Positions 7,990 to 37,479 of a stretch of 39,808 bases of DNA are shown piece by piece. The stretch is from the NCBI GenBank assembly GCA_017464815.1, contig JAFTYI010000002.1, forward strand, positions 1-39,808, given 5' to 3'. Positions within the stretch are counted from its first letter, which is position 1. Every line of letters starts with the position of its first letter. Origin of the DNA: Bacteroidaceae bacterium (lineage in GTDB: Bacteria > Bacteroidota > Bacteroidia > Bacteroidales > Bacteroidaceae). Made by a program: the position numbers and the translations under genes. Under the pieces are notes generated by a model, which was given only the letters and a program-made list of their open reading frames with translations, did not search any database and was not told the DNA's origin.

Positions 7990-9114
7990 TTATAATCTTA
8001 CAAACTCCCAAAAGTTTTCAGGAGAAACCACGCTGAATGGAGAATCAGGATAAGCCGTGGCAAACGATGCCGGTTGCTTGGCCTTTGCCTTTCCGCTCCA
8101 CTTGAATTCATAAGTGTGGAGTATTCCGTCTTCTTCCTCTATTAGGTCAATCTCTTTTTGGTCATGGGTACGCCAGAAGTAAAGTTGGGCATAGCTGCCG
8201 GTATAGGCATTACGCTTTACCCGTTCACTTACCATCAGATTTTCCCACAAGGCCCCCATGTCGTTACGCAGTTCTGCCGGAGCAAAGTTGGAAAGCACGG
8301 CATTTCGGATGCCATTGTCGTAGAAGTAGATTTTCTTCCCCTTCTTGATTTCGTTGCGCAAATTGCGGCTGAAAGAGTCCAGACGAAAGATGACGAAGCA
8401 CTTCTCTAGCAGGTTGATGTAGTTCTCTACCGTCTCTTTATCGACCCCAAGCAGATTACTCAGCTCGTTGTACGACACTTCACTGCCCAGTTGGAGTGCT
8501 AGTGCACGGACGAGTTTCTGCAAGATGTCGGGTTTCTTCATGCCTTTGTACGACAACAAGTCCTTGTACAGATAATTGTTGGCCAGCGTCATCAGCGTGC
8601 GCTTGGCATCACCGGGAAATGTCACCACTTCGGGATAGAGACCGTAAATCAAGCGTTGTTCCAACATGCGCTGTTCCTCCCGCTCCGATGTCTCGGCTGC
8701 CAGTTCGGTCAACGAAAAGGGGAACAGGTGATACTCTATCAACCGTCCGGTGGCAGGTTCATTTACCTCTCCGGCCAATTCCAATGACGACGATCCTGTG
8801 ACTACTACTTTCGTGTCGAGTTTCAGGTCGCCTATCTTTTTCAATGTCAGTCCGATATTCTTCACCCGTTGTGCCTCATCGATAAACACCATGTCGTAAG
8901 GAGCAAGCAAAGTTCTCAGTTCAGTGGAAGTTTTCTCCTCTATCAATAGGGTGTCATCCAAGTCGTCGCAATTGATGGAGAGCACTTTTTCATTCTTATT
9001 GTGCAGTCCCTCCAGCAATGTAGTCTTTCCCACCTGTCTGGCTCCTAGCAGGACAATGACCTTCTTCCGTGTAAAATCTCGCAAAATTGTGTGTTCTATG
9101 CTTCTTCCTATCAT
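7990..9114 (-). CDS. AAA_14/DUF4143 family ATPase
   Basis: A 374-residue protein. The N-terminal AAA_14 domain has Walker A GARQVGKT at residues 24-31, Walker B MVFIDEAQ at 75-82 and sensor-like VVTGSSS near 112. A winged-helix region follows (VSYNELSNLLGVDKETVENY), and the C-terminal DUF4143 domain carries KEIDLIEEEDG and YEFKWS, the acidic and lysine residues of a PD-(D/E)XK nuclease-like fold. Such proteins are very common in Bacteroidetes and archaea, often many per genome; their role is not established to my knowledge. The promoter (-7 TACTTTTG, complement of 9132-9139) is overlapped by a pair of large palindromic repeats at 9153-9218, suggesting strict regulation. Confidence 0.85.
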   Translation of the reverse strand: MIGRSIEHTILRDFTRKKVIVLLGARQVGKTTLLEGLHNKNEKVLSINCDDLDDTLLIEEKTSTELRTLLAPYDMVFIDEAQRVKNIGLTLKKIGDLKLDTKVVVTGSSSLELAGEVNEPATGRLIEYHLFPFSLTELAAETSEREEQRMLEQRLIYGLYPEVVTFPGDAKRTLMTLANNYLYKDLLSYKGMKKPDILQKLVRALALQLGSEVSYNELSNLLGVDKETVENYINLLEKCFVIFRLDSFSRNLRNEIKKGKKIYFYDNGIRNAVLSNFAPAELRNDMGALWENLMVSERVKRNAYTGSYAQLYFWRTHDQKEIDLIEEEDGILHTYEFKWSGKAKAKQPASFATAYPDSPFSVVSPENFWEFVRL

Positions 9115-9131: not shown

Positions 9132-9163
9132 CAAAAGTAGAATATTTTTCTCAAACCGCCAAA
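9132..9163 (-). promoter_or_regulatory. Promoter of the first AAA_14 ATPase gene
   Basis: Reading the minus strand, TTTG (complement of 9160-9163), a 20-base spacer and TACTTTTG (complement of 9132-9139) form a good promoter 18 bases upstream of the start codon. The -33 element lies inside the first palindromic repeat. Confidence 0.75.
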
Positions 9164-9218
9164 TTTATGGTAAATTTAGTGGTTACAACCGCCAAATTTG
9201 GTATAAATTTAGCGGTTT
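9153..9218. promoter_or_regulatory. Tandem palindromic repeats, putative operators of the AAA_14 gene
   Basis: Two imperfect 32-bp copies, 9153-9184 and 9187-9218, at a 34-bp period. Each begins AACCGCCAAATTT and ends in AAATTTAGxGGTT, so each is itself an inverted repeat around a centre containing GGTA. The second copy is the better palindrome. They cover the -33 region and upstream DNA of the 9114 gene. Confidence 0.8.
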
Positions 9219-10803: not shown

Positions 10804-10975
10804 GTGAAGTTGGATTTTCATTTACATGCTTTGGTAATATTTCCCGCACTTCTATTTCCTCCCTATTCCGTCAAAGGGAAAGGGTGCATAACGGGTGTAT
10901 TTTTGCAAGAATATGCAAAAGGGAAGGACAGAATGGGGATGGAGAGCCGGTTGCAAACAGATGTTCCCATTCTTC

Positions 10976-11093
10976 CACTCCTAAACATCCGCGGAAGTTT
11001 AGGAACGATACTGCTCGTGCGCAGTTGCGCACCGGTGGAATTTTAGGAGTTCTTCAGCGGAAATTTAGGAGCGATTCGGCGGAAGTTTAGGAT
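10976..11093. repeat. GTTTAGGA dispersed repeat cluster, copy 1
   Basis: Units of the form GCGGAAGTTTAGGAGCGATTC recur in both orientations: inverted CTCCTAAACATCCGC at the left, then GCGGAAGTTTAGGA at 10991-11004, GTGGAATTTTAGGAG, GCGGAAATTTAGGAG and GCGGAAGTTTAGGA at the right. A GTGCGCAGTTGCGCAC palindrome lies at the centre. A second cluster with the same plan is at 23670-23790. Confidence 0.8.
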
Positions 11094-11290
11094 AGGTGGC
11101 CCTGAAAGACACTGTTGGATGGGAGGTGCGATTGCTTTCATGATGCGCTTGAATGTATAATTATACAATCGATCTGTATAAACATGCAAGATTGACTGCG
11201 CGAGAATCGCCTATATGCACGCGGATTTTCTTTCGCTCGAAAAATGGGTAAAAGATTATTCGTGTGGTAAGTTGTTGATAATCAGTCTTT

Positions 11291-21778: not shown

Positions 21779-21838
21779 AGGAAGTGTGAGAAACTTATAA
21801 CAAAACTAATATCTCCTTTACATGAGCACTAAGCATAC

Positions 21839-21898
21839 AAGCATCTGTGATGCGATAAACGGTTTTCAGTCAAACATAAAAGCGCATCGCAGATGCTT
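21839..21898. repeat. 16-bp stem, 28-base loop hairpin after hemW
   Basis: AAGCATCTGTGATGCG (21839-21854) pairs with CGCATCGCAGATGCTT (21883-21898) with one G-T pair. No T-run follows. It may be a repeat-type element rather than a terminator. Confidence 0.75.
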
Positions 21899-21908
21899 AT
21901 ACTCAGCA

Positions 21909-21931
21909 CATCCTCATTTCAAATGAGGATG
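21909..21931. repeat. Perfect 23-bp palindrome
   Basis: CATCCTCATTT (21909-21919), one C, then AAATGAGGATG (21921-21931). It could be an operator or the tail of the preceding hairpin element. Confidence 0.7.
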
Positions 21932-21980
21932 GACGGAAAGTGATTGGGCGTGTTTCGGACAAACTCGTTTTTTGTTCCGT

Positions 21981-22093
21981 ATTACCAAAAAATGCCGTAA
22001 AGGGCAAAAAATGGTAATAAGGTTTGGTCGTCAGAAATAATAGTGATACCTTTGCATTACCAAAAAATGCCGTAAAGGGCAAAAAATGGTAAT
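21981..22093. promoter_or_regulatory. Two identical 38-bp palindromic repeats bracketing a promoter
   Basis: The 38-bp sequence ATTACCA ... TGGTAAT occurs without a mismatch at 21981-22018 and 22056-22093. Inside each arm lie TGCC and GGCA, so each copy is a bulged palindrome. Exactly between the copies is a good promoter, TTTG 22023-22026, 20 bases, TACCTTTG 22047-22054. The second copy begins one base after the -7 box, so the transcript would start inside it. Confidence 0.9.
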
Positions 22094-22097
22094 AGAG

Positions 22098-23354
22098 ATG
22101 AAGGTAAACAGGGATTATTATTTGAATCAGTTGATAGCCGGTATGGGAAATCGGCTTATCAAAATTGTAACGGGCGTACGCCGGTGTGGCAAGTCTTTTC
22201 TGTTGTTCCAACTTTTTCATGAATATCTGAACAGTAAAGGAATAGATGATGACCACATCATAGAAGTCGCATTGGATGACCGTAAAATGATTGAATTGCG
22301 CAATCCGGATAAGATGTTACAACACATCGATAGCCATATAAAAGACAAACAGACGTACTACATTCTGTTGGATGAAGTGCAGATGATGGAAGATTTCGCT
22401 GATGTGCTGAACAGTTTGTTGCATATTCGGAATGCAGATGTCTATGTAACAGGAAGCAACTCGCGCTTTCTTTCCAAAGATGTTGTGACTGAATTTCGTG
22501 GACGCGGTGATGAAATACACCTCCAACCCCTCTCCTTTGCCGAATATTACAGTGCGACAGGCGGTGACAAATTCACCCGTTGGAAAGAATATTATACGTA
22601 TGGAGGCTTGCCACAAATATTGACCCTTGAAGGTGAACAAAAGAAAATCGATTATTTGCGAGGTCTTTGCGAAACGGTATATATAGCCGATGTACTTGAA
22701 CGTCATAAAGTCAAGAATAAGACTGAATTTGAAGAGTTGGGAAGGATAATGGCTTCCATTATCGGCTCACCTTGCAATCCGACCAAGCTATCCAACACAT
22801 TCAAGAGCGTAAAGGGCGTTTCCATCTCTCATAAAACACTTGGTAACTACCTGGAGTATATGGAAGATGCTTTTCTGATAAAGAGAGCAATTCGGTACAA
22901 TGTTAAAGGAAAAAAATACATCAATACCCTCTCCAAATATTACTTCTCGGATATGGGCATACGGAATGCCTTGCTTGATTTTCGTCAACTTGAAGAGACG
23001 CATATCATGGAAAATGTAATCTATAACGAACTCCTTGGGAGGGGCTTCAGAGTGGACGTGGGGTTAGTCGAACTGAAAACGACGGATGCCGAAGGACGTA
23101 CAATCAGGAAACAGTTGGAAGTAGATTTCATTGCAAACAGAGGAGGAGCAAGATATTACATCCAATCAGCCTTTGCCATACCCAATGAAGAGAAGAAAGC
23201 ACAGGAAATGGCATCATTCAGAAGAATAGACGACTCGTTCCAGAAGGTTATCATAGTAAAAGATGACATCATGCCCTATCGCGATGACAACGGCTATATG
23301 ATTATCGGATTGATGGATTTCCTTCTCTCTCAAAACAGTTTAGAAAGGGTGTAA
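22098..23354 (+). CDS. AAA_14-type ATPase with C-terminal nuclease-like domain
   Basis: A 418-residue protein of the same broad family as the 7990-9114 gene but a different branch. Walker A GVRRCGKS is at 26-33, Walker B ILLDEVQ at 89-95, a VTGSNS sensor near 125, and the winged-helix region HKTLGNYLEYMEDAFLI near 255. The DUF4143 C-terminus has QLEVDFIAN and YYIQSAF in place of the usual EVDF...K. The start is set at ATG 22098; an ATG at 22086 lies inside the second palindrome. Role unknown to me; the promoter is enclosed by two identical palindromes, a clear sign of special control. Confidence 0.83.
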   Translation: MKVNRDYYLNQLIAGMGNRLIKIVTGVRRCGKSFLLFQLFHEYLNSKGIDDDHIIEVALDDRKMIELRNPDKMLQHIDSHIKDKQTYYILLDEVQMMEDFADVLNSLLHIRNADVYVTGSNSRFLSKDVVTEFRGRGDEIHLQPLSFAEYYSATGGDKFTRWKEYYTYGGLPQILTLEGEQKKIDYLRGLCETVYIADVLERHKVKNKTEFEELGRIMASIIGSPCNPTKLSNTFKSVKGVSISHKTLGNYLEYMEDAFLIKRAIRYNVKGKKYINTLSKYYFSDMGIRNALLDFRQLEETHIMENVIYNELLGRGFRVDVGLVELKTTDAEGRTIRKQLEVDFIANRGGARYYIQSAFAIPNEEKKAQEMASFRRIDDSFQKVIIVKDDIMPYRDDNGYMIIGLMDFLLSQNSLERV

Positions 23355-23403
23355 AGGCGTTCCCGTAACTCTCAATCTGTGGTTGGTATGCATTTCGGAC
23401 TGG

Positions 23404-23503
23404 CCTAGGAAAACCCGAATGCACGAATGTAGTAATAGCAGCCCACGCTATACGCGTGAGAACCACTATGCTCTCTCTTGCATTCGTTGTGAAATTTCCT
23501 AGG
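23404..23503. ncRNA. Nested inverted-repeat element, possible structured RNA
   Basis: CCTAGGAAA (23404-23412) pairs with TTTCCTAGG (23495-23503); inside, GAATGCA (23417-23423) pairs with TGCATTC (23479-23485); at the centre CACGC-TATAC-GCGTG (23444-23458) makes a small hairpin. A similar sequence is, as I recall, repeated in other Bacteroides. It could be an RNA, an insertion cassette or a MITE-like element. Confidence 0.5.
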
Positions 23504-23669
23504 TTTCCAACTACAAGACAAGCATAACGCTTCTTTTTTCTTTTCCGCAATGTCTTGAATCGAGTAAACTCAATCCGCTGCAAATATAGGGATAAATTGA
23601 ATAAGTCGGATAAAAAACGTCGAAAAAATCAAGAAAGTGTGCTTCAACTTACAAAACCAGCCGACCGAC

Positions 23670-23790
23670 CGCTCCTAAACATCCGCCGAAGTTTAGGAGT
23701 GGTTCCATCCGTGCGCAACTGCGCACCAAAAGAAGCGTAGGAGAACATCGGCGGATGTTTAGGAGTTCTTCAGCGGACGTTTAGGAGCGG
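23670..23790. repeat. GTTTAGGA dispersed repeat cluster, copy 2
   Basis: The same plan as 10976-11093: CTCCTAAACATCCGCC inverted at left, GTGCGCAACTGCGCAC at the centre, and GCGGATGTTTAGGAG and GCGGACGTTTAGGAG at right. Confidence 0.8.
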
Positions 23791-23838
23791 TAAAATGGGA
23801 GAAATGGGGAAGAAGTATGCATGAAGGGACAAAAAATA

Positions 23839-23916
23839 GGCACGGATTACACGGATTACCACGGCTCTCTACATAGTTGTATGAGATTAATCCGTGTAAT
23901 CCGCGTAATCCGTGCC
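23839..23916. repeat. CACGGAT inverted-repeat element, copy 2
   Basis: GGCACGGATTACACGGATTA at the left and TAATCCGTGCC at the right (end 23916), matching the element at 15258-15348. The inner region differs. Confidence 0.8.
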
Positions 23917-23923
23917 TAAAAAT

Positions 23924-23955
23924 AAGGGAGGTGTGGATTATGACACACCTCCCTT
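23924..23955. terminator. Terminator of the HU-like gene
   Basis: AAGGGAGGTGTG (23924-23935) pairs with CACACCTCCCTT (23944-23955). On the minus strand a T-rich run follows, 33 bases after the HU-like stop. Confidence 0.85.
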
Positions 23956-23987
23956 TTCAATCAGACGAGGATGGTGCGGCGAGTGAA

Positions 23988-24458
23988 TCAAAGCGGATTT
24001 CCGCCGGTTCCGCTGCCGCTGTCTCCGCTGTCGCTCGTGGTGTCATCGCTTCCGGTGGTTCCGCCGGAGACTGAAGCCACGTCTTCATCCGCGATACTGT
24101 ACTTGATGCCGCGGGCCTTGGCACTCAGTTCCTTGCAGGGACTGAAGCTGATGCGGATGCGACGGACGCCCACCTCTTCCTTGTTCACGCTGCTGCGGCT
24201 CTTTACGGCGGGGAGGAAGGTGCCGAATCCTTCGAGGTTCACGCCATGCCCCTCCTCCATCCATCCGACCATCGAATCGATGACGGAGGAGAGAATCATG
24301 CGCACCTGAGCGGGGCGCGAACCGGTGTTCTGAGCCACATACTCCGAGAGCTTCTTGGTGGTGATGACATCGCCGCGGTCGGCACTTGCTACGTACATTT
24401 CGGTTTTCGTGTCACTGAAGTTCAGCGTACGTTTTGACACTTTTACTGCAATACCCAT
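23988..24458 (-). CDS. HU-family DNA-binding protein with low-complexity tail
   Basis: A 156-residue protein of the Bacteroidetes HU-related group. Residues about 1-120 contain the HU-like fold (TTKKLSEYVAQNTGSRPAQV, MVGWMEEGHGVNLEGFGTF, RRIRISFSP), followed by a tail rich in Gly, Ser, Thr and Asp (GGTTGSDDTTSDSGDSG). Members bind and bend DNA non-specifically; their exact role in Bacteroides is unclear. A TATCTTTG box (complement of 24518-24525) is 60 bases upstream, and beyond it lies a regular GTTCCG array. Confidence 0.85.
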   Translation of the reverse strand: MGIAVKVSKRTLNFSDTKTEMYVASADRGDVITTKKLSEYVAQNTGSRPAQVRMILSSVIDSMVGWMEEGHGVNLEGFGTFLPAVKSRSSVNKEEVGVRRIRISFSPCKELSAKARGIKYSIADEDVASVSGGTTGSDDTTSDSGDSGSGTGGNPL

Positions 24459-24517
24459 AACGTATAAAAAAGTTTTAAGTGATGCCTGTCGGGATTCTCC
24501 CAGTCGGCTTACGGGTG

Positions 24518-24525
24518 CAAAGATA
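24518..24525 (-). promoter_or_regulatory. -7 box for the HU-like gene
   Basis: TATCTTTG on the minus strand (complement of 24518-24525), 60 bases before the start. Confidence 0.65.
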
Positions 24526-24555
24526 CAACCTTAGGATTGGTCGGGTTTCAGCACA

Positions 24556-24601
24556 GTTCCGTACAGTTCCGCACAGTTCCGAAATGTTCCGATTTGTTCC
24601 G
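24556..24601. promoter_or_regulatory. Five GTTCCG motifs at exact 10-bp spacing
   Basis: GTTCCG occurs at 24556, 24566, 24576, 24586 and 24596, always on the same strand; the four bases between vary (TACA, CACA, AAAT, ATTT). It lies about 30 bp upstream of the HU-like gene's -7 box and 95 bp before that of mtaB. The spacing equals one DNA turn. Confidence 0.85.
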
Positions 24602-24694
24602 TTTCGACTTATTTTTATGTGGCCTTTTTTGAACTTTTTAGGTCGATTTCTTATATTTCTTTAACGTAATGCGTGAGTTGTCACAGATAAATGT

Positions 24695-24702
24695 TACTTT
24701 TG
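24695..24702 (+). promoter_or_regulatory. -7 box for mtaB
   Basis: TACTTTTG at 24695-24702, 20 bases before ATG 24722. This position argues against a start at GTG 24713. Confidence 0.65.
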
Positions 24703-24721
24703 CCTGTTCTAAGTGAAACGT

Positions 24722-36177: not shown

Positions 36178-36306
36178 TTTGTTGTTTGTTTTAGTTCCGT
36201 AACTGACGGCCTCTGCCATTTTTGTGCGAAGAGATAAATTGGAAAAGCCTAAGGGAAAAACTGGTTTGCCTTGCTCTTTTTTCGATTTGCCTTTAGTCAA
36301 AACTTT

Positions 36307-36386
36307 AATCACCACTGCTAATTACATAATCAGCAGTGCTAATCATATAATCAGCAGTGCTGATTACATAATCATCAGTGCTGATT
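36307..36386. promoter_or_regulatory. Four 17-bp palindromic boxes at 21-bp period
   Basis: Boxes start at 36307, 36328, 36349 and 36370, each 17 bp, separated by 4-bp ACAT/ATAT spacers. The third, AATCAGCAGTGCTGATT, is a perfect palindrome; the others differ at one to three positions. They lie between the divergent DPP4 and YtrA-type operons, about 150 bp before the latter's promoter. The spacing is two helical turns. Confidence 0.9.
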
Positions 36387-36513
36387 AAACTTTTCTCTTT
36401 AGCTTTATAAGAAATCTCTACGGGCAAACCGGTTTTTCTCTTGAGCATTTCAGCTTTTACTCCTAAGCGTGAATGGAGAATGCTTAATAGTTGTTAAATT
36501 TTGCTTCGCATGC

Positions 36514-36633: not shown

Positions 36634-37479
36634 ATGATGATGGAAATTAAAAGTGTCTCTTTCGGCTACAACCGCAAGCAGACCGTGTTCGACGACTTCT
36701 CCCTGACGATAGGCGAGGGGAGTGTGTATGGACTTCTTGGACGCAACGGCACCGGCAAATCAACCTTGCTCTACTTGATGACCGGCCTGCTCCGTCCGCG
36801 CAGGGGTGAAGTGCTCTACAAGGGAGAAAATGTCTCCCTTCGTCGCCCCTCGACGCTCTGCGAAATGTTTATCGTCCCCGAGGAATTTGCCCTGCCGAAG
36901 GTCAGCCTCCGCCAGTTTGTCAGCCTGAACCGCCCCTTCTATCCGCGCTTCAGCGACGAACTGCTGCACTCCTGCCTGCGTGACTTCGACATGAACGAAG
37001 ACATCCACCTGGGCGAACTCTCCATGGGGCAGAAGAAGAAGGCCTACATGTGCTTCGCCCTGGCCACCAACACTCAGTTCCTGGTGATGGACGAACCGAG
37101 CAACGGGCTGGACATCCCCTCGAAGAGCCAGTTCCGTCGCGTGGTGGCATCGGGCATGGCGGAGGACAAGGCGGTCATCATCTCCACCCATCAGGTGCGC
37201 GACATCGACAGCCTGCTCGACCATGTGATTATCATCGACGGAAGCCGCACGTTGCTCAACCGCTCCGTCTCCGACATCTGCAACCGCCTCTGCTTCACCG
37301 AACTCTCAACGGGCGAACTCACGGGCGACGAACTCTTCACTCAGCCCTCGCTGCATGGTCAGAGTGTAATCCTCCCCAACCGCCTCGGCGAGGAGGAGAG
37401 CACGCTCAACCTCGAACTGCTCTTCAATGCCACCCTGGCTCACCCCGAGCGGATGGCGCAGGTGTTTAACGAGAAATAA
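36634..37479 (+). CDS. ABC transporter ATP-binding protein (YtrB-like)
   Basis: A 281-residue ATPase: Walker A GRNGTGKST (36-44), signature LSMGQ (129-133), Walker B FLVMDEPSNGLD (149-160), and STHQVRDIDSL as switch region. It powers a membrane partner, presumably the two proteins encoded next. Similar genes in the YtrA operons of Firmicutes and Bacteroidetes are induced by cell-wall antibiotics. Three ATG codons in tandem (36634, 36637, 36640) allow starts differing by two residues. Control by the terminal GntR gene through the operator at 36546-36569 is likely. Confidence 0.9.
   Translation: MMMEIKSVSFGYNRKQTVFDDFSLTIGEGSVYGLLGRNGTGKSTLLYLMTGLLRPRRGEVLYKGENVSLRRPSTLCEMFIVPEEFALPKVSLRQFVSLNRPFYPRFSDELLHSCLRDFDMNEDIHLGELSMGQKKKAYMCFALATNTQFLVMDEPSNGLDIPSKSQFRRVVASGMAEDKAVIISTHQVRDIDSLLDHVIIIDGSRTLLNRSVSDICNRLCFTELSTGELTGDELFTQPSLHGQSVILPNRLGEEESTLNLELLFNATLAHPERMAQVFNEK

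Follow-up and report, generated by a model that had tools for sequence, protein, structure and literature searches.

The stretch of DNA analysed here, called the window, comprises 39,808 nucleotides of a contig from a Bacteroidaceae bacterium. On its plus strand lies a gene for an ATPase of 418 amino acids, preceded by two copies of one palindrome. The features of this locus are as follows.

21981..22018, plus strand: palindrome copy 1, 38 bp, nested (arm 7, A5, core 14, A5, arm 7), upstream of the -33 element
22023..22026, plus strand: -33 element TTTG, read from the sequence
22047..22054, plus strand: -7 element TACCTTTG, read from the sequence
22056..22093, plus strand: palindrome copy 2, 38 bp, spanning the expected transcription start and the leader
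22098..23354, plus strand: AAA_14-DUF4143 ATPase gene (PADLOC PDC-S01), 418 aa, from the list of open reading frames and profile searches
22827..22835, plus strand: codons of S244-H245-K246, putative winged-helix recognition helix assigned from sequence; residue 246 covaries with arm base 5
23076..23102, plus strand: codons of K327 to T335, a hairpin presumed from sequence before E341-D343; core bases 3-5 covary with its residues 327 and 335
23118..23171, plus strand: PD-(D/E)XK-like motif EVDF...YIQSA, E341 to A358, from a motif search among relatives

The palindromes and the ATPase gene

The two copies lie 75 bp apart from start to start, and repeat comparison within the window shows that they match perfectly over 39 nt (21981-22019 against 22056-22094). 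Each forms a nested dyad with outer arms ATTACCA/TGGTAAT and inner arms TGCC/GGCA, and both A5 tracts are on the same strand, so that they are unpaired across the dyad. Copy 1 ends 4 nt before the TTTG, 20 nt separate the TTTG from the -7 element, and copy 2 begins one base past the latter; the promoter, of the form TTTG-N20-TAnnTTTG, is of the Bacteroidales type. The description given by an earlier, sequence-only reading of the locus, namely identical 38-bp palindromes bracketing the promoter of an ATPase gene with AAA_14 and DUF4143 domains, is thus borne out. The same reading held that a wide occurrence of the 38 bp in the genome would speak against it. In the organism's own assembly (2.63 Mb, 58 contigs, 79% complete), searched with the exact 38-mer at up to 3 mismatches, there is no third site, and a search with arms and inner arms fixed and the rest free, again at up to 3 mismatches, gave no site beyond these two; a regulon of the window site elsewhere in this genome was found by neither search. 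The core of a paralog (L078) likewise has exact matches at its own two sites only, with two more places at one mismatch.

Profile searches assign AAA_14 (E 2e-32) and DUF4143 (E 2e-19) to the window protein, a combination which we take to be COG1373, and the PADLOC profile PDLC04787 (PDC-S01) matches it with an E-value of 1e-114. An NCBIfam profile search of the protein assigned no family, and a PDB profile search gave no solved relative. A second in-frame ATG lies at 22086 inside copy 2; the start at 22098 agrees with the aligned homologs. Four open reading frames of at least 80 aa between 21778 and 24713 were scanned with Pfam, of which one, on the other strand, is HU-like and three have no family. 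The ATPase gene and the HU-like gene (23988-24458, minus strand) belong to about 2.9 kb (21779-24712) at the junction of hemW and a miaB-like gene; in one of 14 relatives examined, a genome of the same genus, the miaB-like gene comes directly after hemW.

Two further repeats were observed in the window. One is a 123-nt repeat of CTCCTAAACATCCGCCGAAG-like units at 10975-11097 and 23669-23791 (74% alike), the second copy of which lies about 300 bp behind the ATPase gene. The other, at 36299-36394, consists of four tandem 21-bp units (TAATCAGCAGTGCTAAT-like), also inverted repeats, upstream of an open reading frame at 36634.

The element among relatives and other subfamilies

Relatives of the window protein were pooled from a set of 120, from a contig search (80 kept of at least 585), from further fetched places, and from two sets of genomes (399 of the family, and 299 of the family to which L134, a Butyrivibrio, belongs), and they represent Bacteroidota, Bacillota and other phyla. 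Among 266 loci, 260 were usable (the N-terminus was missing in three, the open reading frame was short in two and the upstream region in one), and 237 non-redundant upstream regions were left after 23 redundant ones had been dropped. The element was modelled as a 7-nt arm, a 5-nt A tract, a core beginning with TG, a second 5-nt tract and an arm; this model was devised after inspecting the family itself, and the controls were scored identically. An element lying at the expected transcription start reaches a score of at least 14 in 182 of the 237 upstream regions (55 fall below it), against 7 of 289 upstream regions of neighbouring genes and 3 of 237 shuffled sequences, and 110 of the 151 elements scoring at least 15 are 38 nt long. 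The sequences of the sites are private, differing from gene to gene. Chance or an assembly duplication as the origin of the window pair is ruled out by the recurrence of the architecture, with other sequences, in those 182 relatives.

An upstream partner was defined as a match at 24 or more positions and was sought only at offsets of 60-65, 71-78 and 82-87 bp. Under this definition 96 upstream regions have a clear second copy, at 63 bp (3), 72-78 bp (80) or 83-87 bp (13), with 78 of them at 73-77 bp; these offsets are close to 6, 7 and 8 helical turns. An unrestricted scan for direct repeats in 123 upstream regions placed 40 of 55 matches at 72-78 bp, with 25 control matches scattered, the direct-repeat score alone being a weak test for palindromes (median 9 against 7). 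The sequence-only reading would have been contradicted by orthologous genes without paired repeats; homologues do carry palindromes at their promoters, often paired. Its proposal that each ATPase has a private pair of operators stands in part, since a clear upstream partner accompanies 93 of the 182 elements scoring at least 14 and is lacking for the other 89. Among 116 genes with enough flanking sequence, the upstream copy is present in 66 and no clear partner is found on either side in 44, while in 5 the upstream copy is absent and a partner in the same orientation lies just after the stop codon (L060, L095, L097, L113 and L080, the last being weak with 25/38).

The elements keep a fixed relation to the promoter. 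TAnnTTTG adjoins 57 of 167 elements scoring at least 14.5, in 52 of these within 1 nt, and a TATAAT-like -10 box adjoins 77 others, leaving 33 with neither box; the background is 0.6% for the former box and 11% for the latter. From the end of the upstream copy to the TA of the box the distance is 27-30 nt in 20 of 27 cases for TAnnTTTG and in 43 of 63 for the TATAAT-like box. Since adjacency to the box is kept while the distance from element to ATG varies among relatives, the element is tied to the core promoter, and the pair encloses it, in two promoter types. The sites thus occupy fixed positions around the promoter of their own gene, as those of an autoregulator do.

The own genome contains 37 AAA_14 matches, 35 of them above the cut-off. 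A second AAA_14 gene of the window, besides the one described above, belongs to another PDC-S01 branch.

7990..9114, minus strand: second AAA_14 gene, from a profile search
9154..9217, minus strand: its private pair of 31-nt repeats (9187-9217 and 9154-9184), 33 bp apart

Reading the upstream regions of this genome suggested separate, differing repeats for many AAA_14 genes. The best direct repeat in -200..+30 scores at least 14 in 17 of the 37 genes, against 10 of 102 control genes whose intergenic gap is 150 or more (Mann-Whitney p=2e-8). When three other genomes contributed another 15 DUF4143 genes and the controls numbered 184, mean repeat strength was highest at 33 bp (z 27) and 32 bp (z 25), followed by 75, 66, 23, 65 and 63 bp. 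The offset classes 21-24, 31-35, 62-67 and 72-78 bp take in the strong repeats of 24 of 31 own genes, 12 of 12 others and 12 of 41 controls; these classes were picked after the own genome had been seen, so that the 15 genes of the three other genomes are a partial check. Outside this pattern are 13 of the 37 own genes (6 below threshold, 7 at other offsets) and 3 of the 15 others.

Other subfamilies have two to four private direct repeats instead of a palindrome pair, and there the proposal of a private pair requires this amendment. When a paralog (L022) was used as query, 65 of 70 upstream regions had a repeat score of at least 11, and with eleven further AAA_14 loci 75 of 81, at offsets of 32-34 bp (70) or 63-66 bp (5). 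Units of this type, for example TTGGAAAAGTGT or GGAAAACGCA, run through arm, A tract and core in direct order, as if they were half-sites set head to tail and not palindromes. Among more distant Bacteroidota DUF4143 loci (29 of 30 used, with a wrong open reading frame in two), 7 have direct repeats scoring at least 12, all at 22-23 or 32-33 bp, and many others appear by eye, uncounted, to have a single palindrome before the ATG.

Two records from these searches deserve description. A complete but orphan 38-bp element lies in the own genome (L398, C24:52927; locus positions 1489-1526), with no AAA_14 gene nearby among the listed matches. Its core and arms match those of a gene in a genome of the same genus (L072). 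On the left it is flanked by sequence like that at the upstream copy of L072, on the right by sequence like that towards the start codon, which would fit recombination of the two copies and later decay of the gene. A circular record of Prevotella nigrescens of 2.63 kb (L364, 1-2630) is annotated only with an ATPase of this kind and a gene with a TaqI-like specificity domain; it may be a piece of an assembly, and its gene table may be incomplete.

Covariation of site bases and ATPase residues

Covariation between the sites and the protein was analysed first with 74 proteins and then with 156 of the 237 (score at least 13.5, TG at a core end), where 78 phylogenetically independent pairs served to compare each base of the site with 320 protein columns. 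The strongest link joins arm base 5 and residue 246 (p=4.7e-12; the next column reaches 2.2e-6): residue 246 changed in 23 of 24 pairs with a changed arm base 5, and the base was kept in 46 of 47 pairs with the same residue. On the right-hand arm residue 246 comes out again (p=6.4e-11). Three further residues each rank first for their base by a small margin, namely T335 for core base 5 (p=1.4e-7; next 3.4e-6), K327 for core base 3 (1.1e-5; next 4.9e-5) and H245 for arm base 6 (6.6e-6; next 1.3e-5), the last result not being repeated on the right-hand arm, where column 42 is best for base 6. For core base 4, I184 is first (1.3e-4) and K327 second (1.4e-4); for arm base 4 the best column is A197 (1.8e-6), then S244; for arm bases 1, 2, 3 and 7 the best p ranges from 1.7e-3 to 5.6e-5. 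Eleven spacer and leader positions and the A-tract positions gave no p below 1e-4 with any protein column. Divergent pairs vary at many columns, and p near 1e-6 arises for unrelated ones (E212 with arm base 5, A197 with arm base 4); only residue 246 stands far above this level.

The resulting code at 246 is K with C (38 of 38), N with A (27 of 34), D or E with G (19 of 24) and H with C (3 of 3). It is chemically plausible, with Lys, His or Arg going with C (and the G opposite), Asp or Glu with G, and Asn with A. At residue 327, N goes with CG (42 of 46) and K with CC (9 of 9), and the 49 proteins with Arg there have many different cores with no clear preference.

Held-out prediction was carried out by training on 82 proteins and testing on those 29 of 74 later ones that are less than 75% identical to them. 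Of 418 columns, residue 246 predicts arm base 5 best (19 of 29 correct against 4 for the majority guess), and for the other arm it gives 21 against 7. Residue 327 is first for core base 3 (20 against 15) and first, tied with two others, for core base 4 (15 against 10), and residue 335 is second for core base 5 (16 against 13). For arm base 6, residue 245 fails to beat the majority guess (18 against 20).

Since bases of the site change together with specific residues of the ATPase, both in independent pairs and in held-out proteins, the ATPase itself is most likely what binds the sites, and a suggestion of the sequence-only reading is thereby strengthened. That reading had pointed to the nuclease-like C-terminal domain as the part that could bind; judged by covariation, it would be one of two readers, and the weaker, the contact of helix and arm being much better supported than that of hairpin and core. 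The nuclease-like domain does seem to help in reading the DNA sequence. Walker A and Walker B are each found in 236 of the 237 relatives and the PD-(D/E)XK-like motif in 234; at the position of the catalytic Lys these 234 have Ala (229), Val (4) or Thr (1) and never Lys, the residue by which an active nuclease of this kind is recognised. The domain is therefore probably inactive in the window subfamily, as far as the motif tells; several paralogs in the own genome keep the Lys (EVK or EIK). In the subfamily of the paralog L022 the same covariation analysis (72 of 81 loci, nine excluded by name, 36 pairs, register uncertain) made no column stand out.

Possible roles of the sites

We consider it quite probable that the ATPase, with its AAA_14 and DUF4143 domains, binds DNA and targets its own promoter. 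Its standing is lowered somewhat by the clear upstream partner, which accompanies about half of the elements, and by the core contacts, which are less distinct than the arm contact. One protomer would read a bipartite half-site, with the recognition helix (244-246) on the outer arm and the hairpin of the nuclease-like domain (327/335) on the inner core, the arm and core contact positions being about 11 bp, or one turn, apart. Two protomers would make up one 38-bp palindrome, palindromes about 6, 7 or 8 turns apart would align two dimers along the same side of the helix, and these dimers, flanking the site of RNA polymerase, could repress the promoter by occlusion or bridging. Judging from position only, the ATPase probably acts as an autorepressor; this is the likeliest reading because the sites lie over the start and behind the -35 region, the spacing is nearly that of the same face and the protein would recognise its own sites. 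The upstream copy is placed where an activator could bind as well. Private site sequences imply that the many paralogs in one cell need not cross-talk.

Occlusion of a promoter does not explain why 5 of 116 genes, one with a weak match, have their partner copy behind the stop codon. These copies, in direct orientation and in genes without an upstream copy, are the reason for retaining another explanation, improbable as it is, in which the palindromes serve a gene cassette for recombination or mobility and regulation is secondary. The orphan element with no AAA_14 gene seen beside it, and the one genome of 14 in which hemW directly precedes the miaB-like gene, agree with such a cassette. However, in the 66 of 116 genes with an upstream copy, recombination between copies would delete the promoter only; moreover, element positions are locked to those of the promoter, and the orphan itself resembles the product of two upstream copies recombined and then decayed.

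The usual binders of palindromic operators are small regulators dedicated to them, and a separate host factor might bind these palindromes in place of the ATPase. We regard this as somewhat less probable than the cassette, because particular ATPase residues covary with the sites both among independent pairs and in held-out proteins, and because the sites vary from gene to gene and yet accompany the ATPase gene in several phyla.

The repeat might act instead as RNA, a folded leader controlling translation or being bound as such, and copy 2 does have a stable RNA fold (-13 kcal/mol, z -5.1). The upstream copy, however, precedes the promoter and is absent from this transcript, and with one copy outside the transcript a role in RNA is very unlikely, slightly more so than a separate factor. 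Furthermore, in 80 pairs the two copies agree at the recognised positions (79-80% at arm base 5, 89% at core base 4), with agreement elsewhere of 48% at arm base 2, 65% at core base 7 and 65-88% in the A tracts. Positions 2-5 of the A tracts do not pair across the dyad (complementary in 18-25%), and 15 upstream copies against 4 copies at the transcription start, out of 79, have at least 4 T in 5. The upstream copies are more often fully palindromic than the start copies, as though hairpins in the leader were avoided.

An iteron-like origin, with the ATPase as initiator and the repeats as replication or partition site, is hardly credible: AAA+ proteins with a winged helix and spaced repeats recall initiators, and matches to the window protein occur on 254 plasmid records (one is 2.6 kb long), yet one genome has 37 AAA_14 matches, many with different repeats, and the elements of the window subfamily are tied to promoters.

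Relation to known systems and significance

Autogenous operators are a known kind of control, and under GalR-type control operators stand on both sides of a promoter. The sites described here likewise enclose one promoter on roughly the same face of the helix; unlike the GalR type, they are spaced about 63-87 bp apart in this family, the presumed binder is an AAA+ ATPase, and the sites differ from gene to gene, with no further genomic site for the window gene. Autoregulation is also a property of toxin-antitoxin systems and of restriction-modification control proteins, and reportedly of AbiE. As in toxin-antitoxin and restriction-modification control, the genes are accessory, multi-copy and patchy, with repeats in their own promoters. 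The difference is that binder and presumed effector would be one polypeptide here and that the next gene in the window, among open reading frames of at least 80 aa, is HU-like and on the other strand, not an antitoxin.

According to one study, PDC-S01 consists of an ATPase fused to a domain of the PD-(D/E)XK superfamily and ranks fourth in frequency among the defences of all prokaryotes (PMC12988326); another puts it first in frequency among individual loci of rumen defence systems (PMC13356809). The window protein shares the PDC-S01 profile and the fusion, and differs from the description in that the nuclease-like domain of its subfamily has no catalytic Lys. PDC-S01 is a candidate for phage defence on the basis of PADLOC and these two papers (PMC12988326, PMC13356809). 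A table in a further paper shows that an AAA_14/DUF4143 gene of Thermus thermophilus was 6.6-fold up when plasmid DNA and Argonaute were both present (PMC4406477), which fits an inducible gene and proves nothing. In the open-access literature we found no tested mechanism for PDC-S01 and no account of promoter sites private to each gene, of a protein recognising its own sites or of a code for such recognition. What appears to be new, relative to that literature, is a very common ATPase family with gene-private operators and a two-domain code readable from sequence.

A tentative extension, which we hold to be rather unlikely though less so than any of the rival explanations above, is that PDC-S01 genes are self-locked systems of one gene, in which the sites at the own promoter would be the chief genomic targets and the bound form the off state. 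If so, loss of binding, caused for example by invading DNA or by a change that a phage brings about, would at once release the effector and lift the repression of its gene, and the private operator would play the part of an antitoxin. Since single residues would suffice to alter the code, dozens of such units could exist side by side, and in some lineages the gene might also be bounded by its palindromes as an exchangeable cassette.

Private, covarying operators offer a concrete handle on a large family that is only guessed to serve in phage defence. The code begins to predict binding sites from protein sequence, and the family could supply a very large natural set of protein-DNA pairs for learning such a recognition code.
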